The translations under genes were made by a program, and so were the position numbers. Shown here piece by piece: positions 1,636-20,917 of a stretch of 64,000 nucleotides of DNA. Origin of the DNA: Polytrichum commune (lineage: Eukaryota > Streptophyta > Polytrichopsida > Polytrichales > Polytrichaceae); the NCBI GenBank assembly GCA_950295325.1, contig OX485809.1, positions 494,001 through 558,000 of the forward strand, given 5' to 3'. The notes beneath the pieces are model-generated. The model was given only the letters and a program-made list of their open reading frames with translations. It did no database searches and had not been told where the DNA came from. Position 1 is the stretch's first letter; every line of letters starts with the position of its first letter.

Positions 1636-2511
1636 TATTATACCGACGGTTCAATTTAAAAACCTAAATTAATCTCCCCCGAAACATGGAGAAGGGAAAC
1701 AACATGATATGGCATCTACAGCTCGAAAGGGATTAACATTGCCAAAAGAGTACATGGCCACCAGAATATCTTACGTGCAAAAATGATTGGTATACATAAA
1801 ACACTACGAATTATCAACACCCAATATCCAAATGAACCCGCATACATATTCACCGATAGCCTAAATGTATTATATCTATTAAACACATAAATTAAACACC
1901 CCACACCACACAATAGCCACCCCGACCAAATCACACTTGCCTCACGGGGGGATCACTCCATTGTCAAGTTGAACACCACGTGCGACCAAAAAAAATCTTC
2001 TTTTGGTAAGTTGCACCACCAAAATGGGTCACAATTTTATCAAATTTTTTTCATGAGTAGATATATACAGTACCTATGACATAGTTAAAAATGGTAACTA
2101 AATTTGATGATTTGTTTTTTTCATAAAACATACCGTTTCTAACTAGAATGACACATAATTGAACTAAAACAATTACTAAAAATAATAAAGATGACTAAAA
2201 TTTTCAAAGAATAATATAAAATATACTATCAATGGTTATGTATATGTAGAAAAAATATCATAAATTTTAAAATTATATATGGCATGTAATATAAGGGTAG
2301 CAAACTTTGTCCTCACGTGGTGTCAACTTGACAATGAAGTGACCTCCCCGTGACTTGCCTTCATGGTACAATTGCTCCAAAACCGCTCCCAACCAATCAC
2401 ATTATACAAAGTCAGAGCACATGTCAACATAGACGGCAACGACCAAGCAGATAAATTAGCAAAAAAAGGACTTGACCTTGCCCATAGAGTGCCATACACC
2501 CATACGAACAT
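1636..2511 (+). pseudogene. Retrotransposon RNase H domain, interrupted by a MITE
   Basis: YTDGS at about 1647-1661, FTDSLNVL near 1850-1873 and GNDQADKLA near 2432-2460 match three of the four conserved acidic positions of ribonuclease HI. Where the family usually has a glutamate in RAELxAI, this copy reads RAKMIGI, so the second acidic residue appears to be lysine. Stops near 1656 and 1889 interrupt it. The hAT-like MITE at 1943-2352 splits the domain; skipping the MITE and one copy of its duplication brings the two halves back into one frame. RNase H in a LINE degrades the RNA strand of the cDNA hybrid. Confidence 0.75.
1943..2352. mobile_element. hAT-type MITE, 410 bp, inside the RNase H domain
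   Basis: The two ends are inverted repeats of about 39 bp (CACGGGGGGATCACTCCATT at the left; the right end reads the complement with a few changes and finishes CCTCCCCGTG). They are flanked by a perfect 8-bp direct repeat ACTTGCCT at 1935-1942 and 2353-2360. An 8-bp duplication with CA...TG ends is typical of the hAT superfamily. The interior is AT-rich and has no coding capacity. Confidence 0.9.
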
Positions 2512-2556
2512 GCTCATGCCACACCTTACTACTACCAAAAAGACGAATGGCCCTCC

Positions 2557-4268
2557 ATGATGGATACGCCAGATAAAGGCCCCGTTAGATTCCTAGAAAA
2601 ACAAATCAAAAAATATGACAAAATAAATAACTTAGAAAATATGGCCATACGGACCCCCAATATCTGCAAATGGACAGGCAATACATACATTGACAAAGAA
2701 CTCTCTAATGAATTTTGGAATAACCCCACTATTATGGACAAACAAAAATCATGCCTTATCAAATTTCGCACTGGAACTTACATGGGCCAAGCCAGAAAAC
2801 AAACCTTTTTTGGTAGACAAAGATTTCCCACCATCACCTGTCCTATTTGTAACTTATACGAACCCGACACATGGCTACATGTACTACTCACATGTAGGCA
2901 ACAACACATACACTCACTACACGTTAAAAGACACAACAAAGCAGTATGGGAAATCAAAAAATTATTAATTTCATCCGAAAAAACCCGATGCTACACTCTC
3001 ATGAACGTTGGTACCTTTAAAAATAACCCCCGAGAAAACACCGTCCCTAACTGGCTATTACCATGCACATGCGGAACCCAAAGATGCCACTGTAACTCTT
3101 GGTTTAGACCCGACATTCTTTGCGTTAAAGGGTTACCATATCAAAATGAGCCCCCCACAAATATAGACCAAACACTTACCATACAATTCATTGAATTCAC
3201 ATACTGTAATGATAGATTTTCACCAGAAACACTAGAAGCTAAAGCTAACAAATACAAACCACTGATAGAAAACATTGTTGCTTTAGGCTGGAAAATTGAT
3301 CCGCTCATTGTTATTACAGCAGGCGCCAGAGCCGCAACACACATTCCATCAATGAAAGTACTTGAAGACAAGTTTAATCTACCTATGCTCAGGGTTGTCT
3401 ATTGTATCGTAACGGAGGTTAATCTCGGCATAATGTCGTGCCGTCACGACACGTATCCATCACGACATTATGCCGGATGCTGTCTTTATCCTGACGGACT
3501 TGAATTTTACCAAATTCTGTGTGTAATTACATTACCCCATTTCGGACACGTAGGATGTAAGATGTCCACGTGTGATGACATGTCAGCAAAGTAGAGGTAA
3601 AGTGGGGAAAAAATTACTAGCGCTTGTCCGCCCCCGTTCCCGCCCCGTTCCCCCCCGTTCCCGACCCCGTCCGCCCTTGTTCCCAACCCCCGTCCGCAAA
3701 TTTTAAAAATAATGATAAAAAAACAAACCCCGTTCCCGTCCCCCGTCCGCCCCCGTTCCCGACCCCGTCCGCCCCACCCTCGTCCCCCGTCCGCCCCACA
3801 CCCTCCTTAGTCATATTTTACTACTTTGATTTTAACAGAATGATAAACATAATGGCAAAATGGTTTACCTGGCGCTAGGCATATCCACGTCCACGTCGGC
3901 CTTTTCTGCCACATAGGACGCCACCTTGGCAAGAAGGTAAGTATTTTACCCACCCTACTAGCTTCCCCCTAGGTTGACCCTACGTGGACCCTATTGTGTC
4001 GTGACGGAGGGGTCCGTCACGACACGACACGTCATGACGGCACGACACCGTCATGACGTCGGGATAGACAACCCTGCCTATGCTATCCATCCGAAATACC
4101 TTCAAAAAACATCAATACCGTTGCCATACAATACGCCATGTCCATCCTCCTCCACAAAAGAAAACTAGAAAATTACCAACCTCTACCTCAAATACAAGAC
4201 CCCCCCTAGCTATACCAAAGTTATATATAAAAACGTCCTCTCCACACAACAATAAGTTCATGGCCTGA
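2557..4268 (+). pseudogene. Retrotransposon CCHC knuckle and restriction-like endonuclease, split by a hAT element
   Basis: The block at 2557-3389 contains CPICNLYEPDTWLHVLLTC, a C-x2-C-x9-H-x4-C knuckle (around 2840-2896), followed about 80 residues later by cysteine pairs and then RPDI ... IEFTYCND ... KANKYKP. That RPD ... E ... K arrangement fits the PD-(D/E)XK endonuclease found at the C terminus of R2-like LINEs. The element at 3390-4076 cuts the frame; beyond it the same frame resumes at 4085 and ends at a stop at 4266-4268 after a basic, proline-rich tail of about 60 residues. This part has no internal stops, so it decayed less than the upstream RNase H part. Confidence 0.72.
3390..4076 (-). 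mobile_element. Short non-autonomous copy of the giant hAT element (687 bp)
   Basis: It begins CAGGGTTGTC and ends in the inverse, with a perfect 8-bp duplication CCTATGCT at 3382-3389 and 4077-4084. Its left part (about 3390-3600) is the reverse complement of the right end of the 13.7-kb element at 7233-20909, and its right part (about 3830-4076) matches that element's left end. Between them lies a C-rich array (about 3625-3805) corresponding to the element's G-rich arrays. No transposase or cargo remains. It inserted in the endonuclease domain of the LINE in opposite orientation to the giant copy. Confidence 0.93.
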
Positions 4269-4512: not shown

Positions 4513-5419
4513 ATGTGGCTTGACGGATTGGTGCTTGGCATCGGATAACATTACCCAGCCCAATACTCTTAACTCCGGCGCGGAGTTCGATGCGGCTCCG
4601 ATGCGGCTCCGGGGAGGTTCGGATGCCAGCTCCGGTGGGTTCGGGTGGGTTGGGGCAAAAATTGCCCCCTATTTTTTTGATTGGGTGGGGCCTTACTTGA
4701 TCTCATAAGGGGCCTCCTAGAGTAATTTGGGGCCGTAGAACCCAAATTTAGCAAAAAAAAAACCAAAAAAAGTCATCAAGGGGCCAAAACGGGGAGGGCC
4801 AGAAAAATGGACCCACCGGAGCTGGCATCCGAACCTCCCCGGAGCCGCATCGGAACCGCATCGAACTCCGCGCCGGAGTTAAGAGTATTGGGTTGGGTAA
4901 TGTTAGGGCTTGGCATCCACTTATGGAAAGTTGGGGCTATTTATTATTGTGGCATGGGCATGCTCGAATGACAGTGTCATGGCGGGTTTAGCTGTGTGTG
5001 AACTTATGATGTCTATAGTTTCGACAACATCTGACCTCACTCAAGACTTTAACACATGGTACCTAACCCCCGTCCCCTATGTTTGTAAACCAACTCATTG
5101 GGACCTCATGAGTTGTTTATTGGCAGCTCTCACTATCTGGCTTTTCTACAAGGCATTCGATTGTGGCGACAAATCTACATATTACACAATTGTGTTCCGG
5201 TCCATGGCTTTAATTGGGGTGGAACGCTTTAATGTTCTCCCCTCCCACTGCCTCCAACTTTGTTATAGATTTTTTGTTATCAACCTTGTGCATGATTTGT
5301 CACCAAACCACGTTGCAAAGTGCATCCGGATTCCCTTGGTCATGGCTATCCGTTTCTACATTGGAGGATACTTTGAAATCGACATGTTCATGAGGGTGTC
5401 TCATCCGCTTTGCATATGA
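4513..5419 (+). pseudogene. Unrecognised hydrophobic ORF split by the Mutator-like MITE
   Basis: A polypyrimidine run ending CTACAG precedes 4513. Skipping the MITE and one duplication copy gives one open frame of about 175 codons from there to a TGA at 5417-5419. The product is hydrophobic, with several stretches that could span a membrane and eight or more cysteines. I do not recognise it. The frame could be an exon of a host gene or a chance ORF. The splice-like upstream context and the continuous frame across the insertion favour an old exon, weakly. Confidence 0.3.
4543..4907. mobile_element. Mutator-like MITE with ~100-bp terminal inverted repeats
   Basis: The first and last ~95 bases are inverted copies of each other (left part AACATTACCCAGCCCAATAC; right part ends ATTGGGTTGGGTAATGTTA), leaving a GC-rich core. 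The element is flanked by the 10-bp direct repeat GCTTGGCATC at 4533-4542 and 4908-4917. Long inverted repeats with a 9-11-bp duplication are the hallmark of Mutator-like elements. No coding capacity. Confidence 0.88.
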
Positions 5420-5794: not shown

Positions 5795-6362
5795 CAGGGT
5801 TGTCTATCCCGACGTCATGACGGTGTCGTGACGGACCCCTCCGTCACGACACAATAAGGTCCACGTAGGGTCAACCTAGGGGGAAGCTAGTAGGGTGGGT
5901 AAAATACTTACCTTCTTGCCAAGGTGGCGTCCTATGTGGCAGAAAAGGCCGACGTGGACGTGGATATGCCTAGCGCCAGGTAAACCATTTTGCCATTATG
6001 TTAAAATCAAAGTAGTAAAATATGACTAAGGAGGGTGTGGGGCGGGAGGGGGGGGGGGGGGACGGAGCGGATGGGGGGGAACGGGGCGGACGGGGGAGGG
6101 GAACGGGGTCGGGAACAGAGCGGACGGGGGCGGGAACGGGGCGGACGGGACGGACCTCTACTTTGCTGACATGTCATCACACGTGGACATCTTACATCCT
6201 ACGTGTCTGAAATGGGGTAATGTAATTACACATAGAATTCGGTAAAATTCAAGTCCGTCAGGATAAAGACAGCATCCGGCATAATGTGGTGACGGATACG
6301 TGTCGTGACGGCACGACATTATGCTGAGATTAGCCTCCGTCACGACACAATAGACAACCCTG
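5795..6362 (+). mobile_element. Second short non-autonomous copy of the giant hAT element (568 bp)
   Basis: The ends are CAGGGTTGTC and its inverse, with a perfect 8-bp duplication TTCTCAAG at 5787-5794 and 6363-6370. The left ~225 bp match the left end of the 13.7-kb element and the right ~220 bp (from about 6150) match its right end, in the same orientation as the giant copy. The middle (6030-6150) is a G-rich array of the CGGACGGGGG type. It lies 870 bp upstream of the giant copy. Confidence 0.93.
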
Positions 6363-7224: not shown

Positions 7225-7232
7225 GGAGGAAG

Positions 7233-7504
7233 CAGGGTTGTCTATCGCGACGTCATGACGGGGTCGTGCCGTCATGACGCGTCGTGTCGGGTCGGACCCC
7301 TCCGTCACGACACAATAGGCTCCTCGTAGGGTCAAACTAGGGTCAACCTAGTAGGGTGGGTAAAATACTTACCTTCTTGCCAAGGTGGCGTCCTATGTGG
7401 CAAAAAATGCCGACGTGGATGTGCATATTTCCCTTGGCATGTAAACCATTTTGCCATTGTGTTTACCATTTTGTTAAAATCAAAGTAATAAAATATTACT
7501 AAGG
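7233..7504 (+). repeat. Left terminal and subterminal region of the giant hAT
   Basis: After the terminal repeat, the first ~90 bp are dense in short motifs related to CGTCATGACG and CGTCACGACAC in both orientations. hAT transposases usually bind many short subterminal repeats of this kind. The rest (to 7504) is shared at high identity with both short copies, including ACTTACCTTCTTGCCAAGG. It ends where array I begins. Confidence 0.8.
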
Positions 7505-7512
7505 AGGGTGTA

Positions 7513-7750
7513 GGTCGGACAGGGGAGAGGGTCGGACGGGGGGAACGGGTGGGGAGTGCGGGCGGACGTGTGGGAACGCGGGGGAACGTGGGGTCGGACG
7601 GGGGGGTCGGACGGGGGGGGGGGAACGCGGGGAGCGTGTGGGAACGTGGGGAGCGGGGGGTGGGAGCGGGTTTAGGAGGTTTGGATAGGACGGGATGGAT
7701 GGGAACGGGATTAGGGGAACGGGATTAGGGGAACGGGAGGGAGGACGGGG
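7513..7750 (+). repeat. G-rich array I
   Basis: About 240 bp of irregular repeats of units such as GGTCGGACGGGG and GGGAACGGG, with many runs of four or more G on the plus strand. The part from about 7620 to 7745 is nearly identical to 20391-20520 in array IV. It abuts the TATA box at 7751. The G runs are suited to forming quadruplexes. Confidence 0.85.
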
Positions 7751-7758
7751 TATATAAG
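7751..7758 (+). promoter_or_regulatory. TATA box for the RING-like cargo gene
   Basis: TATATAAG lies directly after array I and 334 bp before the ATG at 8085. Its position next to an otherwise featureless G-rich array suggests a core promoter driving rightward transcription. Confidence 0.6.
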
Positions 7759-8084
7759 TGGGGGGACCACTTATCTACCTCATTCTACTCCTTGTGGGAG
7801 CCCGGTCGGCCCTCCTCTTAAAGAGAGCGTGGGGCACTCGGGGGAGTGCGGGGTCCCTATTTGGGGGCCCTTTTATCTTTATTGGGGAAATACTCACGTG
7901 TTTTGTGGGTGTGTTTTTGGTGGTTGTTTTTTGACTTTAATTTTTAACAACATTTTTGAACTTATTCCACGGAAACACTATTTTAAAGTGTATGCTTGGA
8001 TGTTTTTGTAGCACTATTATGAAGTGCAAGTAGTATTTTAAAACTTTAGAGTTATACACTAGATTTAGAAACCACAATTGGGAT

Positions 8085-10396
8085 ATGGCAAGTGGAGGAT
8101 CTAAAGACATGGCAAGTGGAAGATCAAGGGAGGCCAAAAAATATCAACGCAAGTTCGCTGAGTTGGAGTGGGATATTTATGATGACCACACCCAAAAAAC
8201 GAGGACAGGTTGGGAGAGGGTACCACAGCCGTGGACTACGAATATTGCAATGCAATATGTGGGCTTCCCTCACTTTGATCGTTTGTGGCCAAGACCTTGT
8301 CACGAGATACATTGCAGGTCCATCAGTGCGAATTATAACCAACTTCAAGATGTGGAGATAAAATGGAGATTTTTAACAATCCTTAGAAATATCTCCAATT
8401 TGGAAAGATGGCGCAAGGGCGCAATTCCGAAGTCAGTGGCATGTATGATGTATGCGGAGCACGTGTTGCGAGTTAGAGTGGATTGGTCGAGTTTGGATGC
8501 TCTGAATGAGAAGAAATTTGGAGGTATTGGAATTGCATTCACAAAGTGCACAGTTCCAGATATTCCATACATTCCCGTTCCGGAATGGTTCAGGGAGAAT
8601 TCCAGACTAGTAAATGATCCTAGGACCCCAGTACCAGATGGTCGGGAACAAAAAATGCCACGTCATTCTTGTCGAGTAGACAATGACATTGAGACAGTAA
8701 GTGGGGAGGTGGTTGCAAATATGGAGGACGGCATTGAGGATATCGTAAACCAAGAAAACATTGTAGAAGTTGAGGTCAACAATTTGGTCAACGAGGTAAA
8801 CCTTGGTGAACTTGGAGGGGACACATTGGAGAGCAAAATAGAAGAATTGCGTAAGCAACATGCTGAGGAAATTCGTGAGTACAAAGCAAGGATTCTCGAT
8901 TTGAAAAATTAAGTTGTAATACTTACGATGGGGGGGCTGGCAGTTCAAGCAGTGCACCAATGGCAACAACTGACAGTAATTTCAGTCTTTGCAAGTAGAG
9001 AGGGACACAGCTTTAGAAGAAGCCAGGATTGCAAAGTCACAAACTTTGGAAGTATGTACGATGAATCAAGTAATGCAATCAAAGATGGAGGCTTTGCAAA
9101 AATAGGTGGTTGACATGCATCAACAACTTCAAGTGGTCAATGAAGTTGTTGTTGATTACAAAGCCAAGATTGACCTTGATATTCTTGGTCAACTGGAGGA
9201 GCAGAATGACAAGCTAAAGAAATTTATCTTGGATGCGATTGTGGAGCGCAAAAATATGAGGACAGACACATTGTTTGCTATGGCAAAGGCCCGGCAATTT
9301 GAAGCTGAGTTTGAGAGCATCCAGAAAGAATGGAACCGCAATTAGAGAATGCGGAATATGATGCTCACTTCGTGGCCAGAAGATGAACAGATGTACCCTA
9401 GTTGGTGGGATGCGTGTAATTGGACATTGCCAAGTGGGAGCATCGATTGGAAGCAAGTGCCGGATAAAAATCACCATTGGGATATGCAACAAGTGCATGA
9501 ATATCATGTCTGCATGATTGGTGAGAAGTTATGGCTAAATCCACATCCAATGGTTTTGGACAGATCCGTGTGTACGATTTGCCAATGTCCATTTGACCCA
9601 GAGGGATGCTTTCAAGTTGGATCATGTGGGGCCCAATTTCATCCACAATGTCTAATAAGGAATATGATCAAGAACCGCCAATATCCTCATTGTAGATCAC
9701 CCTTTCACCCTCGTTTGTACCTCCAATTTGGTCTTCGGGATTACATGCCTAACGAGTGGGTGTTAAAGCTATGGGGCTTTCTTTTCGAACTTCAAGACTT
9801 TGATGGGCAGTGTGTTGAGTGGAGTTGGTTATACAATTGTGCCAAGGTTGAGCTATGGAATGAGAACAAGAATGGAGCATGGACACGGAGTGCACATCAA
9901 ATTTTGTATGTTGCAGACGAGTTGTATCCCAACAAGCCCCAAATTTGGCTTGAAAAGATTTTTTTACCAAATTCTTGGTTGGCATTGGGATACAACAAGC
10001 AGACAATTAAAGAGCGGCAAGCACCCTCCTTGGTACAATACAGCAGGTCTCGAATCAGTATCGGAGCATGATTTGGAACAAGATGCAGATGACATGCCTA
10101 TGGAACGGGATCCGAGACTTGAATTGGAATTAGAGGAGGGGTACCACTAGAATAGGCTGCAATTGAGTGCAATTGATGCGATCTTGCATAGAGTTACGGG
10201 TGATGCGGTTTTGAAATGGCTAAATGGTGGCCCCAGACCACGTAATGCCATTCCATTGTCTCCCGGAAGTCGCCCATATCTCACCCGTGGAGTAGCGCGA
10301 AGCATGGAAGCTGGTGAATCATCACGAACACGACGAGGACTTCATCTTCATCCAGCTAGTTCAGTGGCTATAGACCTCGATTCAAATTCGGATTAG
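8085..10396 (+). pseudogene. Cargo gene: N-terminal domain, coiled coil and RING-like finger (decayed)
   Basis: An ATG at 8085 opens 275 codons with no recognised fold, ending in an acidic and coiled-coil segment (EELRKQHAEEIREYKARI). A second coiled coil (about 8980-9342) follows in one frame, interrupted only by TAG codons at 9103-9105 and 9343-9345. Then 9349-10071 encodes a finger with CTICQCPFD, SCGAQFHPQCLI and a final PHCR. This resembles RING/E3 ligase zinc fingers, but the expected cysteine before PHC is tyrosine. A frame change near 10020 and a stop at 10148-10150 precede the last 80 codons. A phase-0 intron (donor GAG|GTAAAC near 8792, acceptor TTTCAG near 8977) could remove the first stop, but not the others. 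The function is unknown; ubiquitin ligase activity is an inference from the finger only. Confidence 0.6.
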
Positions 10397-10989
10397 GAAT
10401 TTTTGTAGATTGTTTAGAAAGTTGTACAAGAAGGGAGGAAAATTTTGGACACAATGAACATATTTCATGTTTAAAAAGTATGTAATATGAAGAGGATTCA
10501 CTGACAATTTTTCATTTTAAAGTGATTAGAACGTGTAAAGGATATCATATGGATGCCATATATTTTAATGCTTTTTGAAAATTTTAAAAACTTACTTGAA
10601 TAATAGTCATTCATATGATAGTCTCACCAAGAGTACTATTAACTAATAACTACATAGCCAATATTGAATAACATATAAAGATATAATTATGTAAAACATA
10701 TAGAAATATTCCAAAAAATAGGAAGCCACCAACGAAGCATGTACAATCGAACAATAGATGGCTTGCAATGTTTATAAAAACATTTGCTTCAAGAAGCTCA
10801 ATAAATAAAAACAAAACTCTATTCACCGTAAGAATAATACATCATAATAAACGATACAACTACGAAGGTAGCATTCGCTTTGTGGTCTAAATGTCTCACC
10901 GAAGGCCCTAAGGTTGTATCAATTTTGACGTAAGTAATAAATTACGGTATTACGTGGGAACACCGAAAGACCACATTTTTGCAAAACCA
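10397..10989. other. AT-rich spacer between convergent genes of the transposon
   Basis: This 590-bp stretch separates the 3' ends of the RING-like gene and the transposase gene. It is AT-rich and without frames, as expected for two converging 3' untranslated regions. No clear polyadenylation cluster can be assigned. Confidence 0.5.
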
Positions 10990-13900
10990 TTACATTCGAA
11001 TCCGTACTGTGGGATCATTTGCTTCGACACATCTTGGGTCCTCTTCAGACTCGTCTGTGCTGAAATCATCATCTGTTTGGGGAGTCGCGCTCCGAAGACG
11101 CAACTCTCGGTCACGTTGTGAGATAATTATCTTCTTGGTGGGCCGGGAGCCTTCTGCATCCTGTATGCCATTTTCATCTAGATGTGGTCTACCCTCATCT
11201 TCATTGTAGTCTTCAGCAGTAAACGGAAGCGATCTTCCTTGATACCTCTTCCTAGTACGTTTGACACCTCTCGTAGTTCTATGGCGCCCTCCACCCCTAC
11301 CACGACTTGAAACATTGTGTATAGCAACCAAAGTAGCACCCACAGTAGTTGCTAGTGAAACATCCAATCTAGAAGTATTGGCAATACTTCGAGTGAGAGG
11401 ACGATGTTGACGTTGTGCATGCACTTGCACAGTAGAGGTGGATGCAATTCCTTGAAGAGCACGACATCGGGTTATAAGCATTTCAGCAACATTGGACGTT
11501 TGAACTTCGGTACGATGGTTGGATATGAGGGAGGCGTCCATGGATTCGGAATGTACTCTGGTTGGAAGTGGATCCTGTTGAACATGCGTTGGCTCGTTTG
11601 CGGGTAGTACATTGTCACCTCCACCAAAAGAAAGGGAATCGCTGTGAGGTTGCAAGGAATCTACTTCAATTCCTACATTCTCTGTTGCCCCCATAGCAAC
11701 ATTATGGTCAAGGCGACAACCTTGTCCAGTATGGAGGGTTTCAAGGGGTGGACCTCCAATAGACCCCTCATGATCGTCATGCATTCCATCGTTATTATGG
11801 GGGACATCTGCTTCATCAAAATCAAACACCCCAAGGTTTCTATCATTACTATTATAACCCTCATCTTCATCATCAGAATCAGATTTCTCTGAATCGAGAT
11901 CATCCAAATCATCGTCAATGTCATCAACATTGTTGTCGTCATCATTTCCGGCCCTATCATTTGGATCCACGTCGACTTCGTTGTCATCTTCTTCGTCAAG
12001 GTCATCGTCAGAATGGACCTCATTCACTTCGTACCATTGTGCAGGTCTCGGGCCCCTCCGATGTCGAATGAGCCTACTATTGGTATATATGTAGACGAGG
12101 TCCTCAACACGACTATGCTTAAAGCGATTGCGACTCTTGTTGTGAACATATGAATACATGCTCCAATTGCGCTCACATGCGGACGCGGAACATACTTTTG
12201 CAAGGATACGTCTCGCTATTGTTTGGAGGGCCTTAGCTCTACCTCCCATTGCATCCCACCATTCATGGAGAGGTGCGGCATGCACGTTCGGGTCTGTAGA
12301 ATCAGCAAAAGGCCCTCGATTTTCAAGGAAATCTTGGTACTGGTGGAGGATTTGGACATAAGTGTCTTGATCTGGAGTAAGTCTGCGAAGAACTCGATTT
12401 AGGATTGGCCTCGAATTCTCATGCTCATGGAGTGGGGCCCAACTACGTAGAAGCGGATTTAACATCGCTCCAGCCCAATGAAGATCATTCAACATCAACC
12501 TCCATCTATTTTCAAACGTTACCATAGCATTTGCAGCAAGCTCAGGGCTTAAGCGAAATGGAGGTTTACTGAATCCACGAATATGGGTTTGTAAATCATG
12601 CATGACCTTCCAAGCCAATCCCATTGCAGGCGCCTTGCCATCAAATACACGAAGAGCTTTAACAACCGGGATCACCATATACAAGAAATTTTCGCACGTG
12701 TTCCAGAATCCATCGGAACGTATAAAGCGTCGCACTGCAAAGCCCTTCGTCCAAGCGGTGCCTGATCTCCTCCTCAAATCACGCATTAGAGTAGACCAAT
12801 CATCATCAACCACCATTCTTTCCAAAGCATTGCGTACTTGAAGAAGACGTTCTATCATGATGAAGCTTGTTGCAAAACGGGTCTCTACAGGTAGGCGGAG
12901 TGAGAGATCTGGTGGCAACCTCCGGAATATAGCTTGAGGAGCATGATGGTTTTTTATAAAAACACAAATATGGCGCCCTTTTTTTACCAACTTTTTCACC
13001 CATTCCTCATTCCCCCAATCTTCTAAGAGGAGATCTAGGCAATGCGCAGCACATCCTTGAACATATAGATCGGGATTTGCTTGAATCAGGTCGCGGCAAG
13101 CGGAGGCCATAACCGGGGCATTGTCGGTGCAAACTTGGACCACATTATGTCGACCAACCTTTTCCACAAATGGTTGAATTTGAGCAGCAACGTAGACATG
13201 ATCCTTGTGATTCCCCGTGGTATCAATGGTACCCAAGAAGACGTCTCCCTTTGTGCCACATTGAAGAACGTTTAGGAGAGGTCTGTTTTGCACGTTGTCC
13301 CATCCATCACAACATATTGTAACGCCGTATTTGTCAACGGAATTCCCCAGCTTCTCCTTCACTTCCCTGTCTAGGTCAACCTTTTTATCAGTTAACAACT
13401 TCGTACGGATGGCATTGTACGATGGTGGTGTGTAGGCTGGCATTCGATGACGGGCAGTTTCACGCACAGCATGAACAAATGCTGGATGTCTCACAATGTT
13501 GAAAGGAATGTTAGCTTCATAAAAAGCCGTTGCCCATGCTCTATCGAGGAGTTGTTTTGTTGACACATTGAACCCCTCCGGTATGTTGAGTTGACGTAGT
13601 TCACGAGGAGGTGTGCTATATATCACAAGATCAGAATGCTGAGTGGATTGGGACATAAGCAAAGGCTCTGTTTCACTAACTACGGAGTCCGCTATAATAG
13701 GCTCTAGAGGTACATCATCTCGCATCGGAGAGTCCTCATTTACAATGCCTACATGTAAGGGCACATTGCCTCCGCAATTTTCAAACAAGACCCTAATATG
13801 CGGGGGTACCATCCTACATGAGGAAACATCAGAAGCACCCCCTAAAGGAGGTCTATAACCAAGGTGGGCCAACATTCTATTTCCTCGGTAAGATATGACG

Positions 13901-13998
13901 AACGAGCAATACCTACATTTAACCTGCCTTTGTGATTTACCGGGAACCAGCCCCTTATCCTCGTACCAATGATCCCATGCATCATTTCGGCGTGGCAT
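10990..13998 (-). CDS. hAT-superfamily transposase with BED finger, intact
   Basis: The open frame runs without lesions to a TAA-type end at 10990. I place the start at 13998 (MPRRNDAWDHW) because a 3' splice site (TTTGCAG) lies just upstream of it and the ten residues before it read across that site. The frame gives about 1,002 residues. Numbered from the upstream methionine at 14028, a BED-type zinc finger lies near 38-58 (CRYC ... H), the catalytic triad candidates are D241 (CCDGWDNV), D302 (CTDNAPVM) and E619 (SASACERNWS), and the C-terminal hAT dimerisation region spans about 585-660. An acidic low-complexity stretch follows (about 670-760), then a basic C-terminal part. It would bind the element's ends and catalyse cut-and-paste transposition with 8-bp duplications, which matches the flanks. 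The intact frame and catalytic residues suggest recent activity. Confidence 0.93.
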   Translation of the reverse strand: MPRRNDAWDHWYEDKGLVPGKSQRQVKCRYCSFVISYRGNRMLAHLGYRPPLGGASDVSSCRMVPPHIRVLFENCGGNVPLHVGIVNEDSPMRDDVPLEPIIADSVVSETEPLLMSQSTQHSDLVIYSTPPRELRQLNIPEGFNVSTKQLLDRAWATAFYEANIPFNIVRHPAFVHAVRETARHRMPAYTPPSYNAIRTKLLTDKKVDLDREVKEKLGNSVDKYGVTICCDGWDNVQNRPLLNVLQCGTKGDVFLGTIDTTGNHKDHVYVAAQIQPFVEKVGRHNVVQVCTDNAPVMASACRDLIQANPDLYVQGCAAHCLDLLLEDWGNEEWVKKLVKKGRHICVFIKNHHAPQAIFRRLPPDLSLRLPVETRFATSFIMIERLLQVRNALERMVVDDDWSTLMRDLRRRSGTAWTKGFAVRRFIRSDGFWNTCENFLYMVIPVVKALRVFDGKAPAMGLAWKVMHDLQTHIRGFSKPPFRLSPELAANAMVTFENRWRLMLNDLHWAGAMLNPLLRSWAPLHEHENSRPILNRVLRRLTPDQDTYVQILHQYQDFLENRGPFADSTDPNVHAAPLHEWWDAMGGRAKALQTIARRILAKVCSASACERNWSMYSYVHNKSRNRFKHSRVEDLVYIYTNSRLIRHRRGPRPAQWYEVNEVHSDDDLDEEDDNEVDVDPNDRAGNDDDNNVDDIDDDLDDLDSEKSDSDDEDEGYNSNDRNLGVFDFDEADVPHNNDGMHDDHEGSIGGPPLETLHTGQGCRLDHNVAMGATENVGIEVDSLQPHSDSLSFGGGDNVLPANEPTHVQQDPLPTRVHSESMDASLISNHRTEVQTSNVAEMLITRCRALQGIASTSTVQVHAQRQHRPLTRSIANTSRLDVSLATTVGATLVAIHNVSSRGRGGGRHRTTRGVKRTRKRYQGRSLPFTAEDYNEDEGRPHLDENGIQDAEGSRPTKKIIISQRDRELRLRSATPQTDDDFSTDESEEDPRCVEANDPTVRIRM

Positions 13999-14226
13999 GA
14001 CTTCAACAAAACCTGCAAATACAAACAATGTAGAGCAAGTAGCTTTGATCGCATACTAGGTCCTGTTCAAGAGTGCCACAAGGGCATCCCTAATTCACAG
14101 TGACCAGAATGGACAAAGTATCCTCTGCAATCGGGTCTCACGCATTCAATCCTCACTCCTTAGAGGAGAATCAAAAGTCTTGAGACACACTATGACAGTG
14201 GAGGCAAAAATGGCTCCTTGAACCCT

Positions 14227-14236
14227 TAATTTATAG
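14227..14236 (-). promoter_or_regulatory. Candidate TATA box of the transposase gene
   Basis: On the minus strand the sequence reads CTATAAATTA, about 230 bp upstream of the chosen start and 30 bp from the edge of array II. A short 5' untranslated exon with an intron ending at TTTGCAG before 13998 would fit. Confidence 0.45.
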
Positions 14237-14267
14237 TAATCATGGAGGAGGTTAACGAATCTAGAGT

Positions 14268-14510
14268 GGGAACGGGGGCGGACGGGGGGAACGAGGTCGG
14301 ACGGGGAGGGAACGGGTCGGACGGGGGGGAACGGGGGCGGGAACGGGTCGGATGTGGTGGGAACGGGTGCGGGAACGGGTAGGGTAGGGTAGGGTGGTCG
14401 GACGGGGGGGGGGGGGGGAGGGAGGGAGGACGGAGGGAGGACGGGGGGGGGGGGGGGGCGGGAGAGGGGAGGAGGGAGGAGGGGGAGGGAGAGAGGCGAG
14501 GGAGAGGAGG
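14268..14510 (+). repeat. G-rich array II
   Basis: About 240 bp of CGGACGGGGGGAACG-like units, then nearly pure G/A runs, G-rich on the plus strand like the other arrays. It sits directly upstream of the transposase promoter. Confidence 0.85.
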
Positions 14511-15324
14511 TTCGTTAAATTAATTAATTAATTTAATGGATGATTATTTAATTAAATATAATATATGTCAGATATAATTAGAATATAAACGTAGATTCTA
14601 AAAAATAAACATAGGATCTATGTTGGTATTAAGTCATATTATTAAGGATAAGTATCTCGTTTGTTTTTTAAATGTTCAACATGTTTAAATATACTAATTC
14701 TTATTCACTAGCACTTCAAGATTGATATTTTAATTGGATATTAGTGGATTGATTGCATTATGCTTATATTCACATGCTCTATATGACATAATGTAATTGA
14801 TATTTGTACCTTTTTTGGGGGGATTTTGTTAATGTTGTATTTAGAACCCGTCCAAAGTGGATTTAAACCCGTCCAAGGCTAAATTAGGGTCTAAACAAAT
14901 CTCAATAGCTATAAGGCCCTGGAATAGTTGGTGATGTCTAAAAGGTAGTTGCACTTTTCCGAATAGTCAAAGGGTACCCTCCTAGCATTGCTACTTGATG
15001 GCACTTGCGCAATAGGGTGAACTTGAAGCCCCTTGATGCTCTTATGCGGGTCTTTATTTGTGGGCTTGAAGTGGATGCAATGGATTGGGCTACCATCTTC
15101 ATCATTTGAAGAAACATATGAACATTTTAGAATTAGAGGGTAAACATGAAGATGATGCGGCAACACTACACAAGACATTAGACATACCATATCCGAAAGC
15201 TCCAATTTTATCTTATTTTTACACCATGCATGCATATCCTAGCTTCGATCTGAGATACTCAAGCAAACGCATTGTACCACTACCAAAAAGATAAGTAACA
15301 TGTATCTATTGAGTTGTTGTATCT
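14511..15324. other. Transposon interior without a convincing gene
   Basis: AT-rich up to about 14900. From 14909 to 15294 there are open frames on both strands (109 codons on minus, 70 on plus), neither recognised. They may be remnants of the same degenerate gene as the block at 15960-16800. Confidence 0.4.
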
Positions 15325-15957
15325 GAAAATACATGGGTTGTGAAACCATACGAACCACTAAGGTTGAAGCACAAATTAGTGACTTGTTGTTGTGAAACCA
15401 TATGAACCACTAAGGTTGAAGCACAAATTAGTGACTTGTTGAATGAAAATGCATTCGGGTGCGCGACATGGGTTGTGAAACCATATGAACCACTAAGGTT
15501 GAAGCACAAATTAGTGACTTGTTGAATGAAAATGCATTCGGATGCGCGACATGGGGTGTGAAACCATATGAACCACTAAGGTTGAAGCACAAATTTGTGA
15601 TTTGTTAAATGAAAATGCATTCGGGTGCGCGACATGGGTTGTGAAACCATATGAACCACTAAGGTTGAAGCACAAATTAGTGACTTGTTGTTGTGAAACC
15701 ATATGAACCACTAAGGTTGAAGCACAAATTAGTGACTTGTTGAATGAAAATGCATTCGGGTGCGCGACATGGGTTGTGAAACCATATGAACCACTAAGGT
15801 TGAAGCACAAATTAGTGACTTGTTGAATGAAAATGCATTCGGATGCGCGACATGGGGTGTGAAACCATATGAACCACTAAGGTTGAAGCACAAATTTGTA
15901 ATTTGTTGAATGAGTGGATAACTAATCAAATATGGAAAGTTCAAAGAGGTATCAAAG
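15325..15957 (+). repeat. Higher-order tandem repeat inside the giant hAT
   Basis: A ~33-bp core (containing GAACCACTAAGGTTGAAGCA) occurs eight times, at spacings of about 51, 85, 84 and 83 bp and then the same series again. A ~302-bp higher-order unit made of one short and three long monomers is thus present twice. The long monomers carry an extra GAATGAAAATGCATTCGG segment. Minus-strand frames through it are open only because of the repeat structure. Confidence 0.85.
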
Positions 15958-15959
15958 AA

Positions 15960-16800
15960 GTTTCCAATGCGGATGTCGGAAGACTTTTTCAAAAGTGTAC
16001 CTTTTTTACCTAACCAACTTTATTTTTATGCCGATTGCGTTGACTTTATCTTACCAACGAGAATTGGATCTTCTACATATTGGATTACATCAATTATTGG
16101 TCATCGTCATCAAGTCCTTAGAGCTCAATATATAAGTATATCATTGAGACTCATACATATAATGAAGGTAGGATATCATGGATAGGATTGGAAAGGAGAG
16201 AGTCATGTTTGAGGGTCTAGAATGCGATGAGGAGATACACAATTTAGACGATCTTCATATTCCATTCAATCCAACACCCGAGCGTGAGAGAGATGTTAGA
16301 AGTGCTAGGGATCGATTTCGTGATGAATATGTCATTACTCCCTTCTTATAATCTACACAAGCTTGGAGGATGAGGGCGGAGGAGGAACAACGACGATATG
16401 CGGACAACTTTGAGATCGATGCGGTGGAAAATGACAACACACAATGCGTGGGTGGAGATCTAAATGATTTGATTGATTTGTGTGCGGATATTTTGGAGAA
16501 GCCCGGGGATGTGGATGTGGATGAGACTTCAATCGACATTGAAATAGTCAAGGTAGCGGGTGAATCTTCAAAGACTTGCCTATTCGTAAGAAGATGAGAG
16601 GATTATTGCCTCATCGGCTACCGTTGAAGGAACGGATGAAAGACCGAACGATTAGCCATGTTGATTACTTCGGCCGAATCCTCTTCCAAAAATGGACCCT
16701 CGCCGGAAGCCAGGAGCATGTACGAGGTTGGCATGACGGAAGTCAAGTTGACGGAATGAAGTGGAATATTAGAATTTGCATGGTTTGTTTATGTATATGA
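15960..16800 (+). pseudogene. Degenerate acidic ORF(s) of unknown function in the transposon
   Basis: Several plus-strand open blocks look coding. One at about 15967-16185 includes RMSEDFFKSVPFLPNQLYFY. One from an ATG near 16180 ends at a stop near 16350 after RDRFRDEYVITPFL. The next (16370-16597) is strongly acidic (MRAEEEQRRYADNFEID). A last block (16576-16800) is in another frame. They are separated by stops and frame changes, consistent with a decayed third cargo gene. No domain is recognised. Confidence 0.4.
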
Positions 16801-17242
16801 TTAATAAAAGACATTTGTACCGTTGTCGTAATAATAAAGTTATGACTTGTATAATATGTTATACCACTTCTATGATTTTTATTTTTATTTTTTTTAATTC
16901 GCCAACCGATTATTACTGCATACTTCTATGACTTTAGTACATCGTAACACCTATCAACAACAACCCTTAAAGTTTCCCCTTGGCCCCAAATTCCATTGAA
17001 AGTATTGAGGGGGACCTTAGCGAACATGGTCTAGTCCTCACCTACTTAACCCTTAAAGGAAAATGTGGAGATCTAATACCACATCCAAAATCTCTTTCAA
17101 ATATACAACACAGTTGTATTTTGCTTTGTGTTTGTTCATCTCAACAGAAACACAAAGTTTATATATAGAAAGACTTGAGACTTCTTAAAGTATTTATATA
17201 TAGAAAGTCTTGAGACTTCTAAAAGTATCTCATAGAACGCTA
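16801..17242. other. Transposon interior, AT-rich with a small duplication
   Basis: No gene. A ~35-bp segment, TATATATAGAAAGACTTGAG and following bases, is directly repeated at about 17160 and 17195. Both copies contain TATATAAA when read on the minus strand. Confidence 0.5.
17193..17200 (-). promoter_or_regulatory. Possible TATA box next to array III
   Basis: TATATAAA on the minus strand, 43 bp from array III. The spacing resembles the array-to-TATA spacing at the other genes, but no good minus-strand gene lies downstream, so it may be fortuitous or a relic. Confidence 0.25.
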
Positions 17243-17347
17243 TGGGGGGGGGGGAACGCTAGGGAACGGGTGGGAGCGGGGAGGGAACGGGGGCGGACGG
17301 GGGGTCGGACGGGGGGTAGGGAGCCGGGGGGGTGAGTGGATGGGGGG
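17243..17347 (+). repeat. G-rich array III
   Basis: About 105 bp of GGGAACGGG and GGTCGGACGGGG units on the plus strand, the shortest of the four arrays in the giant element. Confidence 0.8.
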
Positions 17348-17368
17348 ACTATTATTTAGAGGACTGTT

Positions 17369-17684
17369 ATTGCATATTTATGTAGAGGACTTCATTACCT
17401 ATCCATGGATACCAAGAACTCATTTTTTGGTCTTCATATGAATTTTTGAGAGCCAAAAAACCGAGACTATGTCCAAACTTCCAAAAAATAGAGACAAAGT
17501 GCAGATTCAAAGGGAACAGCGTAGAATTGCGACCATATACTTTTTTGCAGTAGAAATAGTATTGCATATTTATGTAGAGGACTTCATTACCTATCCATGG
17601 ATACCAAGAACTCATTTTTTGGACTTCATATGAATTTTTGAGAGCCAAAAAACCGAGACTATGTCCAAACTTCCAAAAAATAGT
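17369..17684 (+). repeat. Direct duplication of ~120 bp
   Basis: The segments at about 17369-17490 and 17563-17684 are nearly identical (both contain TTGCATATTTATGTAGAGGA and end ACTTCCAAAAAATAG). They are separated by about 73 bp. No coding role is evident. From 17685 to 18128 I see nothing further. Confidence 0.8.
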
Positions 17685-18128
17685 GATTGTGAATTTTATA
17701 ATTATAAATATAAGCAATTGTGAATAGTCCTTGTGAGAGAATACTATTCATAAAATTGTACACCCAATCAAAACTTTATTCAATATCAAGTTTACAAATC
17801 ACGAGTGAATATGAATCAATGTAACTGGATGTGTAGTTTTTATCATCCATATTATGGTTGAATTTCATCCGTTAACGTTTATAGAGTCAGATTTACAAAG
17901 AAGGGAGTACCATTTTGTTGACAGTTAACACGTGTCCTCACGAGAGGCGAGAACCTTGCTTAGCCTCCCATAGACTTCTTCTCGATTATAAAGCAAAAGC
18001 TTCATGGAGTACAAACATTCCATAAACCTCATACAAGTTTTGTATGCAAAATTGATGGCTTTATTTACATCTCCAACGGTTACAAAATTGGTATGATTCA
18101 AAATTGATGCAAAAAAAACAAAAAAAAT

Positions 18129-19526
18129 CTATTTTGCCGTGTCTCGGAAGCACATTGTCGGGTTAACCATGTTGTATGGAGGCGACTTCAAAATGTTCAC
18201 TTCGTGTGTGACGGTTGACCTTTCCGCTAGATTGGTCTTCGTTAATGCATCCAATGCTACCTCAAACCGCATCTTCAAGGCATTTGGATCACGATTTAGT
18301 TGAAACAAGGGGGAAGTCGCATCCCTGGCATAAATCTTCTTTGCCAAAGCACCCACTGAGAAGGACTCCGAGAGATATGTGTGCCTATGTTTCCGAGTCA
18401 TCCTCATTGGAGAGGTCGATGTTCCACGCTGCCCTCGTACATGGAATAATTCAGGACCAGCACAATTGTATTGTGCTTTGTGCTTATTCATCTCATCCAC
18501 TGAATCTTTTCCATAGTTAGAGGGGGCGTCCTCATCTCCCCATGATGCCATGCCCCAATCACACACACCAATGAAAACCGTGTTCTCACGGTCTTGTGGA
18601 AAATGCAACATGACATTGTTGGGATTAAGGTCATTGTGCAACACGTCCTGCTTGTGCACTACATCCACAATGCACATTAGAGCCCATGCCAAATAAGCTC
18701 GATGCTTTCGATATACAACCAAGCGTTTTCGTGAATCAAAGTCGAGCCCTGGCGCTTTAAGGATTGTGCTCTCGTGGACAACCGGAACTTGGTAGTCATA
18801 GACCCTCATGGTCTTCAAAGAGCCTCCATTCCACCACAATGAATAGGATTCGTATGTTTTCACATGGATGTATTGTATCTTGATTACCCCAGGATGATCT
18901 ACAGGACATGCCAATGCTTCAAGTGAACGCTCCTTTCGATTCTCCAAACTATTCGTGGCCTTCATGGTCTTCCCAACCCACTCTATCCAGCTAGGAATGA
19001 ATGATGCTCCATGAATTGTGACCCTCCGCACCACTCCGTAGGACCCTTGGAAGATTTCCTTATCCAAGGCTTTGATCTCCACATCTCTAGGCAACCATAT
19101 GACACCATGTCGGCCCTGAGTGGCAATGTTGTCTGCCATTTGTCTGTCAATGAAAACGGGAAGGGTGCGGGCGGATGTTCCTTTTGCGCTTATTACGCCT
19201 CTTCTCCAATTCTCTAGCTTCTCGTACAGCTCAAACTTCCTGCCACCACTACTTCCCTCACCGGGATGCACAGCATCATATGTCATTGTTGGATTGTAGA
19301 TTGCTTCCCTGGCTTGAGATTCAATCCATGTGTCCCAATCGCTCATGCCCCTAGCTTCTTCAAACTCAGCTCCAGCCATGCCTTCCGTGAGAAGAAGAAT
19401 CAACTCGTTCTTCACCAACTCTAAACCCTTTGTACCATCATTGAGGTATTTTTTTTTCCAAAAAAACCATGCTGTGCTTGTTAAACCATTCCAACACCAA
19501 TATCCTACAATGGTTTCGAGCCTCAT
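18129..19526 (-). CDS. Cargo protein-kinase-like gene, catalytic part
   Basis: A 465-codon open frame contains kinase landmarks: a glycine loop QGSYGVV (residues 160-166), an ATP-site lysine candidate in VGKTMKA (K186), the catalytic loop HNDLNPNNV (297-305; HND in place of HRD), the metal-binding CDWG (322-325; DWG for DFG) and a GPELF activation-segment end (about 357-361). Catalytic Asp299, Asn304 and Asp323 are all present, so it may be active despite the variant motifs. The true N terminus lies in the adjoining frame at 19438-20061: an A9 run near 19450 separates the two frames, and one base less would join them. The host or element function is unknown. Confidence 0.75.
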   Translation of the reverse strand: MRLETIVGYWCWNGLTSTAWFFWKKKYLNDGTKGLELVKNELILLLTEGMAGAEFEEARGMSDWDTWIESQAREAIYNPTMTYDAVHPGEGSSGGRKFELYEKLENWRRGVISAKGTSARTLPVFIDRQMADNIATQGRHGVIWLPRDVEIKALDKEIFQGSYGVVRRVTIHGASFIPSWIEWVGKTMKATNSLENRKERSLEALACPVDHPGVIKIQYIHVKTYESYSLWWNGGSLKTMRVYDYQVPVVHESTILKAPGLDFDSRKRLVVYRKHRAYLAWALMCIVDVVHKQDVLHNDLNPNNVMLHFPQDRENTVFIGVCDWGMASWGDEDAPSNYGKDSVDEMNKHKAQYNCAGPELFHVRGQRGTSTSPMRMTRKHRHTYLSESFSVGALAKKIYARDATSPLFQLNRDPNALKMRFEVALDALTKTNLAERSTVTHEVNILKSPPYNMVNPTMCFRDTAK

Positions 19527-20061
19527 CGATATGTTTATCGCGTTTGCCTCTATATCTCTTTTTCTTTGATTGAGAACCTGATGCCATAGACCCCTCCTCC
19601 ATCCCTCCCGATTCTGCTGCGCGTTTCAATCCCCGTCTTTCATCATGCTCCGAACCTTGAGGTACATCTCGAGCAGGGCTAAGCGGTGTTGATGTCCACG
19701 GTGTCGGAGATTGTGGTGGCACGTTCTCCGAACGAGTGGGTGCATTTATACCTGTGGAACTGCCTGAGCTTGGTCCCCTTCCTGTTCTCCCTCTATGTCC
19801 ACTATTTCCCCGACTCCCACGTGTTCCACGGCTTCCCCGTGTTTGGTTGCCTCCTGAATGACCAACAGCCAAGAACTCCTCATCAAACTGAAAAGGATCT
19901 AGACGTGGATTACGTGCTGCAATACTTCCACTTCCGGGATCGCATCCTGTACCCTTGCCAGTATTCGCGGATGCCTTGCTTTGGAGCCAATCACGGTGCA
20001 GCCTTGAATCCTCGTCTTGGTAAGGAGCAATGGCCTCCCCCTCCATCAAGAAAAAAATCAC
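19438..20061 (-). CDS. N-terminal part of the kinase-like cargo gene, in another frame
   Basis: 207 codons rich in Gly, Ser, Arg and Pro, apparently disordered, with repeats of the type RGSRGTRGSRGN (about 75-90) and a basic nuclear-localisation-like cluster SKKKRYRGKRDK (about 163-174). It ends at a stop just after an A9 run, where the kinase ORF continues one frame over. The overlap and the shared strand indicate one original protein of about 640 residues. An alternative start six codons inside (MEGEAIAP) is equally likely. Confidence 0.6.
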   Translation of the reverse strand: MIFFLMEGEAIAPYQDEDSRLHRDWLQSKASANTGKGTGCDPGSGSIAARNPRLDPFQFDEEFLAVGHSGGNQTRGSRGTRGSRGNSGHRGRTGRGPSSGSSTGINAPTRSENVPPQSPTPWTSTPLSPARDVPQGSEHDERRGLKRAAESGGMEEGSMASGSQSKKKRYRGKRDKHIDEARNHCRILVLEWFNKHSMVFLEKKIPQ

Positions 20062-20255
20062 GTGAATGAATGAGTGAGTGTAAAAACGAGTGCGTGAATA
20101 TGGAAAAAAAATTGCGAGGGTTACCCCACAATTTGCCCTAACCTCCCAAAACCACTAAGATCCGCGCGGTGCCGCTGTCCCTTGGGACGCAACAAGGTCT
20201 CGGGTCCCTAAGTGGTGGGAAGAGAGGAAAGTGATTATAAGTAAAGCACCCCCGG

Positions 20256-20264
20256 CTTTATATA
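20256..20264 (-). promoter_or_regulatory. TATA box of the kinase-like cargo gene
   Basis: TATATAAAG on the minus strand, about 195 bp upstream of the ORF start at 20061 and 27 bp from array IV. This repeats the array-TATA-gene layout at the left end of the element. Confidence 0.6.
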
Positions 20265-20290
20265 GGGAGAGGGGAGCCCAATCATGAGGT

Positions 20291-20676
20291 ACGGACGGGG
20301 GGAAGGAAGGACGGGAGGGTCGGACGGGAGGATCGGACGGGGGGAAGGAAGGACGGGAGGGTTGGACGGGGGGGGGGGGGGGGGCGGACGGGGGGGAACG
20401 CGGGGAGCGTGTGGGAACGTGGGGAGCGGGGGATGGGAGCGGGTTTAGGAGGTTTGGATAGGACGGGATGGATGGGAACGGGATTAGGGGAACGGGAGGG
20501 AGGACGGGGGGGAGGTTCGGACGGGAGGGTCGGACGGGAAAAGGGAGGACGGGAAAAGGTTGGACGGGGGGGTCGGACGGGAGGGAACGTAGGGAACAGG
20601 TTAGGGAACATGTTAATGGGCTAAGGGAGCGGGGTTAGGGTACGGGGAACGGGGGCGGACGGGAGGGCGGACGGGC
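20291..20676 (+). repeat. G-rich array IV
   Basis: About 385 bp of CGGACGGGNGGAAGG and GGGAACGGG units on the plus strand. The segment 20391-20520 matches 7620-7745 of array I almost base for base, including the unique-looking GTTTAGGAGGTTTGGATAGG. It ends at the shared right subterminal region. Confidence 0.85.
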
Positions 20677-20909
20677 GCTAGTAATTTTATTCCCCACTTT
20701 ACCTCTACTTTGCTGACATGTCATCACACGTGGACATCGTAACTCCTACGTGTCCGCAATGGGGTAATGTAAATACACAAAAAAATCGGTAAAATTCAAG
20801 TCCGGCAGGATAAAGACATCATCCGGCATAATGTCGTGACGGATACGTGTCGTGACGGCACGACATTATGTCGGGATTACCCTCCGTCACGACACAATAG
20901 ACAACCTTG
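20677..20909 (+). repeat. Right terminal and subterminal region of the giant hAT
   Basis: Matches the corresponding ends of the short copies at 3390 (inverted) and 5795. It holds an imperfect palindromic cluster of CATAATGTCGTGACGG and GCACGACATTATG plus CCGTCACGACAC, related to motifs at the left end. The terminal bases are CAACCTTG where the short copies have CAACCCTG. Confidence 0.85.
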
Positions 20910-20917
20910 GGAGGAAG

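Follow-up and report, generated by a model that had tools for sequence, protein, structure and literature searches.

The question raised by this locus is whether a hAT transposon can carry, as a regular part of itself, genes other than that for its transposase. Plant hATs, among the best-known plant transposons, are usually regarded as one-gene units of a few kb. The element in question lies in a stretch of 64,000 nucleotides from the moss Polytrichum commune (contig C7, positions 494001-558000; hereafter the window), and it had been proposed, in a sequence-only reading, to represent a hAT lineage with several genes, the transposase being accompanied on its moves by a kinase-like and a RING-like gene. 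The window is part of a 408-Mb genome assembled in 64 contigs, and all the copies compared here come from this one genome. Its plastid PsaB has its best matches in the PDB entries 6l35, 8htu and 7ksq, which are moss photosystems, and seven of the contigs, as we read the assembly, are very large, seven being also the chromosome count of the Polytrichaceae. We consider it very probable that the window holds one copy of a young, high-copy family of giant hATs, whose full elements measure about 13.7-18 kb and possess three-gene packages, the accessory proteins acting in trans. The structure of the elements, their recurrence, the co-inheritance of their genes and the purifying selection on these genes are matters of observation. 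The main features are the following.

7233-20909, forward strand: whole hAT element, 13,677 bp, subfamily B, in the order RING-like gene (forward), transposase (reverse), kinase-like gene (reverse)
7225-7232, no strand: left target-site duplication GGAGGAAG, perfect, 8 bp
20910-20917, no strand: right target-site duplication GGAGGAAG, perfect, 8 bp
7233-7245, forward strand: left terminal inverted repeat CAGGGTTGTCTAT
20897-20909, reverse strand: right terminal inverted repeat ATAGACAACCTTG, one mismatch against the left repeat
8085-10393, forward strand: coiled-coil/RING-like gene, frameshifted in the window copy, 767 amino acids in the open copy at C7:27.95 Mb
9571-9696, forward strand: RING-like finger in which Ala replaces the usual first His and, in the window copy, Tyr replaces one Cys
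10990-13998, reverse strand: intact hAT transposase, 1,002 amino acids, with a weak BED match, DUF659, Dimer_Tnp_hAT and an acidic, Ser-containing tail
18132-20046, reverse strand: kinase-like gene, frameshifted in the window copy, open in other copies (635-638 amino acids), Lys, HND and DWG motifs kept
5795-6362, forward strand: short non-autonomous derivative with the perfect 8-bp duplication TTCTCAAG
3390-4076, reverse strand: short non-autonomous derivative with the perfect 8-bp duplication CCTATGCT

As to the borders, the matching ends and the perfect 8-bp duplication of the earlier reading prove exact, GGAGGAAG standing on either side of 7233-20909, and the two derivatives that it placed nearby are real, each within its own perfect duplication. 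When the genome is searched for the terminal patterns (a 34-mer for the left end, a 30-mer for the right) and two mismatches at most are allowed, 325 left and 480 right matches are found, versus none for the same patterns read backwards, and the ends are thus not a product of chance. The left-end matches are 99-100% identical across up to 268 bp (best 40 of 607 candidates scored), and this near-identity suggests that the family is young. The 8-bp duplication expected of a hAT is present in the window element, in both short derivatives and, on contig C1, around 12 of the 14 long pairs of ends. The left end, CAGGGTTG, fits the terminal consensus of hATs, [T/C]AGNGNNG (PMC6027215), and the right end of the window copy, which reads CAAGGTTG inward, does not, CAGGGTTG being found at the right end in five of six complete copies.

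The transposase is intact, as had been claimed: its open reading frame (ORF; 10990-14055, reverse strand) matches DUF659 (1.2e-33) and Dimer_Tnp_hAT (PF05699; 2.5e-10), both above the Pfam cut-off, the dimerisation domain scoring 40.4 bits versus a cut-off of 21.4. The protein contains the motifs CCDGWD, CTDNAPV, CERNWS and GCAAHC, which we take to be the hAT DDE residues and the CxxH, and a long acidic, Ser-containing tail follows the dimerisation domain. A sequence search of the PDB with the transposase returned weak matches to Hermes.

The evidence for a lineage, as opposed to a single unusual insertion, comes from the recurrence of the whole package. On contig C1, ends with at most one mismatch were paired among the matches listed (100 of the 325 left, 100 of the 480 right), with one extra left end added. 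The resulting 36 pairs are bimodal in size: 22 stay under 3 kb, the range of 3-10 kb is empty, 12 pairs measure 14.6-18.4 kb and two exceed 30 kb, and 11 of the 47 left ends remain without a partner among the matches listed. Duplications flanking the 14 long pairs are perfect in 12 cases and match at 7/8 positions in one, and the remaining pair, of 35.8 kb, has none and may represent two elements. When the gene lists are read together, 13 of the 14 long pairs contain the transposase, the kinase-like and the RING-like gene, the exception being a 15.0-kb pair at C1:72.69 Mb that carries the kinase-like and RING-like genes and no DUF659 match. Six complete copies, the window copy included, all possess both ends, five with perfect 8-bp duplications and one with a 7/8 match. 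Three full-length copies, at C1:21.87, 21.92 and 21.95 Mb, have a common duplication, CCAAAAAG, and the same stop pattern in the kinase-like and RING-like genes, and they are probably, judging by these shared marks, a segmental duplication of one insertion. The 12 perfect duplications on C1, three of them CCAAAAAG, therefore stand for about 10 independent insertions. Long copies with their own duplications thus carry the same genes, as the multi-gene proposal had foreseen, and long copies lacking both accessory genes, the case named as its refutation, have not been seen as intact elements.

Similar observations can be made starting from the genes. Scans with each gene were scored for the best candidates (kinase 86 of 312, RING 150 of 240, transposase 65 of 263), and 103 RING places were kept among the matches listed, extra pieces of loci already listed being omitted. 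Around the best 65 of 263 transposase places, a listed RING lies within 22 kb in 61 cases, a listed kinase in 43 and both in 39. A genome scan with DUF659, in which all 138 candidates were scored, gave 132 matches, the first 103 of which (down to 70.9 bits) are considered strong and the other 29 weak. Among the matches listed, a RING lies within 16 kb of 92 of the 103 strong loci and a kinase within 22 kb of at least 65; both accompany 60 of the loci and neither accompanies six, the number without a listed RING within 16 kb being 11. The weak matches have a RING nearby in five of 29 cases and a kinase in three. In the reverse direction, a strong DUF659 locus is present within 22 kb for 67 of the 86 kinase matches and for 94 of the 103 RING loci, the expected fraction being 0.011. 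No intact transposase-only copy was found among the C1 end pairs (matches listed) or at the six fetched loci with DUF659 only.

The genes also evolve as parts of one unit. Ratios of non-synonymous to synonymous divergence (dN/dS), measured between a reference copy of subfamily A and three copies of subfamily B, are 0.46-0.50 for the transposase, 0.49-0.50 for the kinase-like gene and 0.51-0.58 for the RING-like gene. Against M1 and M2, more diverged copies that also contain all three genes, they are 0.45 and 0.64 (transposase), 0.65 and 0.60 (kinase-like) and 0.46 and 0.52 (RING-like), and for the kinase-like gene against M3 the ratio is 0.55, this copy (M3_C6_39.2) being a 9-kb stretch in which the kinase is the one gene seen. 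In a neutral simulation using the mutation spectrum of the spacers, none of 1000 runs attains the observed ratio of synonymous to non-synonymous changes for any of the three genes, the simulated ratio being slightly lowered by a rougher count of codons hit more than once. The mean numbers of stops in the simulation versus those observed are 8.3 versus 0 (kinase-like), 8.5 versus 1 (transposase) and 15.2 versus 4 (RING-like). By these comparisons, purifying selection acts on both accessory genes in much the same way as on the transposase, over a synonymous divergence (dS) across subfamilies of about 0.14-0.29. The divergence matrices of the three genes correlate with r = 0.87-0.95 over nine copies, which fall into few groups, and one of 2000 permutations attains each value; since the matrices agree to this extent, the three genes are, as far as divergence can tell, mostly inherited as one unit. 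Purifying selection maintained over the divergence of subfamilies argues that both accessory genes help the element, and how they would do so is what we infer further below.

The order of the genes varies. Recurrence in the same order had been part of the check proposed in the earlier reading, and it is not observed, the kinase-like gene being found on the left or on the right and in either orientation, depending on the subfamily. In type A, which is common and measures about 15.7 kb, the order is kinase (forward), RING (forward), transposase (reverse). In type B, to which the window copy belongs, it is RING (forward), transposase (reverse), kinase (reverse), and a third type has the kinase block inverted in place. 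The block adjoins GC-rich arrays that occur in opposite orientations, and this position of the arrays at its borders suggests that it was rearranged through them. The arrays of the window copy are these.

7511-7750, forward strand: GC-rich array on the left, made up of GGACGG/GGAACG motifs and preceding the RING-like gene, with TATATAA at 7751
14235-14500, reverse strand: GC-rich array preceding the transposase, with a TATA box at -237
20264-20690, reverse strand: GC-rich array on the right, preceding the kinase-like gene, with a TATA box at -218

In the window copy and in one A copy, all three genes are preceded by such an array and by a TATA box, at a distance of 218-459 bp from the start. 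Per 10 kb of the element, the motif CGGACGG is found 13.2 times and GGAACGGG 12.4 times, versus 0.41 and 0 in the rest of the window, the derivatives excluded.

As to the identity of the accessory genes, both are present inside the borders as the earlier reading had it, and both are damaged in this copy. The kinase-like identity is safe, and the gene is broken by frameshifts; the RING-like gene is frameshifted as well, and its finger has Tyr at one Cys position. In four aligned copies of the kinase-like protein the motifs GKxMK, HNDLNPNN and DWG are invariant, and these presumably correspond to the catalytic Lys, HxD...N and DxG of protein kinases. A PDB search with this protein returns generic kinases, mostly TTK, also FUS3 and SKY1. 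The same search with the RING-like protein returns a weak match to the RING of RNF38, and single-sequence structure predictions for the kinase and RING ORFs of the window have a mean pLDDT of 34. At its C-terminus, the RING-like protein reads IDLDSDSD in two A copies, in copy I and in one B copy, a sequence that we take to resemble a SUMO-interacting motif.

A number of observations weigh against the reading of a conserved three-gene family with a kinase and a ubiquitin ligase. One set concerns the proteins. The kinase-like ORF of the window (18129-19625, reverse strand) matches Pkinase at 1.6e-5 and 24.9 bits, under the cut-off of 31.7, whereas the APH phosphotransferase family, at 3.5e-5 and 24.1 bits, is just over its cut-off of 23.2, and in an open copy both are below (Pkinase 27.5 versus 31.7; APH 20.2 versus 23.2). 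Because Pkinase stays under its threshold in the window ORF while APH passes, we use the label kinase-like only; judging by these scores, the substrate may not be a protein. The RING-like ORF of the window (9346-10071, forward strand) matches zf-RING_2 at 0.0015, below the cut-off, and the open copy at 8.2e-4, with 20 bits versus a cut-off of 27.3. The RING finger of an E3 ligase has eight zinc ligands, in a C3HC4 or C3H2C3 arrangement. In the finger encoded here CxxC, C, H, C and CxxC are present and Ala replaces the first His, an arrangement that is neither of the two, and because of this Ala ligase activity of the protein is doubtful. Another set concerns linkage. For four of the 65 transposase places, no RING is listed at a distance of up to 22 kb, and at three of these four the kinase sits nearer than usual, which suggests true deletions of the RING-like gene there. 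Among the strong DUF659 loci, 38 of 103 have no listed kinase within 22 kb. Two RING-bearing loci of this kind were inspected and both contain kinase sequence, in one case gapped and cut by the edge of the stretch, in the other interrupted, so that the 65 kinase-linked loci are a lower bound. The six DUF659 loci with neither gene are broken pieces of transposase, with no RING, no kinase and no element ends within 9.4-9.5 kb. A third set concerns selection, dN/dS being 0.98 for the transposase between two near-identical A copies (13 changes) and 0.85 for the kinase-like gene against copy I, a copy with stops.

How such an element might work can be outlined as follows. The transposase would cut and paste the entire unit, giving rise to the 8-bp duplications, and would also mobilise the many short derivatives that retain only the ends and arrays. 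The other two products, kinase-like and RING-like, would be accessory proteins acting in trans for the family. Their likeliest role, at a little short of an even chance given what the sequences offer, would be in countering host silencing or other host control. As IDLDSDSD resembles a SUMO-interacting motif, the RING-like protein could direct ubiquitin to SUMO-marked chromatin proteins. In a bolder form of this proposal, which we hold tentatively, the kinase-like protein and a SUMO/ubiquitin-directed RING-like protein would make up a dedicated module by which host silencing or damage signalling is disabled and the transposition of a very large element can continue.

Of the other explanations, the one that survives best, ranking after counter-defence and somewhat improbable to our minds, is that the two proteins are a module for self-control, phosphorylation or turnover limiting or triggering transposition. 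The acidic, Ser-containing tail of the transposase would be a plausible kinase substrate; this proposal is itself conjecture, and selection on the tail is known only together with that on the whole protein. A distinctly unlikely explanation is gene capture, an ordinary hAT having taken up two host genes in the manner of Pack-type elements, these hitch-hiking without benefit to the element. Capture is known, though rare, in hATs (PMC3260210), both genes are broken in the window copy, and four of the 65 transposase places lack a listed RING. Against this, both genes are under purifying selection like that on the transposase across subfamilies, they exist as full-length open copies, each is preceded by an array and a TATA box of its own, and among the copies examined none is an intact element with one gene. 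That the two genes belong to unrelated elements nested in a hAT is very improbable, since, even if several long pairs (17-36 kb) exceed the common 15.7 kb and extra insertions thus occur, of the 87 RING matches situated less than 6 kb from a strong DUF659 locus, 86 lie at 3.4-5.7 kb (54 of them at 3.8 kb) and all have the same orientation, the genes recur in copies with differing duplications, and on C1 a hAT end is found within 9 kb of 20 of the 22 kinase loci versus 0.38 expected.

The giant hAT family with its accessory genes shares with Ac/Ds, Tam3, Hermes and Gulliver the 8-bp duplications, the short terminal inverted repeats, the Dimer_Tnp_hAT domain, motif-rich end regions and many short derivatives. 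It differs from them in having about double the length of the longest plant consensus surveyed and in possessing two further selected genes. Ac measures 4.6 kb (PMC3260210), and among the 276 plant hAT sequences covered by a survey of 2018 the longest consensus is that of Gulliver, 7,144 bp, no hAT having been found in Physcomitrella in that survey (PMC6027215). The closest analogues as regards accessory genes are provided by other elements. One example is the VANDAL elements of Arabidopsis, which encode an anti-silencing protein, VANC, whose targets are often tandem repeats (PMC5735166). An accessory protein encoded by the element is thus common to these MULE-type elements and the one described here, and the repeats targeted by VANC are comparable to the GC-rich arrays, but VANC is a sequence-specific anti-silencing protein, neither a kinase nor a RING protein. 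The VANDAL transposase belongs to a superfamily different from hAT. Another example is the giant transposons KDZ, EnSpm and Sola-1, known from algae and fungi, which exceed 10 kb and carry accessory genes in hosts with long haploid phases (PMC12477816). These are likewise DNA transposons of more than 10 kb with accessory genes; they belong, however, to other superfamilies, the accessory domains named for them in the portion of the source used are ParB-like and DNA methyltransferase, and the words 'kinase' and 'ring' do not occur in the main text of that paper. A third example is the Burro giant LTR retrotransposons of planarians, whose polyprotein has a RING zinc-finger motif and ubiquitination-related domains and which are thought to meddle with the host (PMC6431247). 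Burro is similar in being a giant element with a RING motif and dissimilar in being a retrotransposon with its motifs inside a polyprotein, and in this review of giant transposons 'hAT' and 'kinase' have no occurrences. Pack-MULEs also have non-transposase genes between terminal inverted repeats (PMC6431247, in part), but they contain gene fragments and are moved in trans, whereas in the present element the genes next to the transposase are full-length and under selection.

Overall, by the transposition features tested the element is a hAT, and its gene load was not found described, no account of a hAT with a kinase or RING gene turning up in the open-access literature searched, so far as its texts were available, most of the subscription literature lying outside that scope. 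Pattern-based scans of IMG/VR gave no confirmed relative. A conserved kinase-like and RING-like pair would offer a natural system for studying how signalling enzymes might serve a DNA transposon against or together with its host. The element also bears on the survival of giant elements in largely haploid plants, and its near-identical copies with open reading frames make the system directly testable.

The remaining features of the element and its surroundings are minor. Two lie within it.

15248-15913, no strand: 83-bp tandem repeats, inside the element
16175-16730, forward strand: acidic open region (g4), broken, selection unsupported

Repeat sequence matching the 83-bp tandem array is also present near 5.9-6.15 kb of an A copy. 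The region at about 16175-16730 had been described as a further degenerate coding region, and this description is not borne out, as there is no sign of selection and the region is not distinguishable from neutral sequence. Considered as a fourth gene, g4 has a dN/dS of 0.54-1.36 against the reference copy and stops in six of eight copies, and 331 of 1000 neutral simulations attain its observed ratio, so that, judged by its sequence, it is probably not a gene. An antisense ORF (g4b) is confined to the A-type copies, to copy I, to N_C4_26.05 and to C1_36.35, and is absent from the B, M1, M2 and M3 stretches.

Outside the element, an open frame at 2488-3393 with no Pfam match is broken by the short derivative at 3390-4076. 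A foldback element at 4546-4905 has arms of 95 nt that are 98% complementary, with a spacing of 170 nt, and a fragment of an OPT oligopeptide transporter (4907-5419) lies directly to the left of the derivative at 5795. Farther to the right, 29884-30402 and 37615-38148 are likely host exons, of an RNA 3'-terminal phosphate cyclase and a BTB-domain protein.

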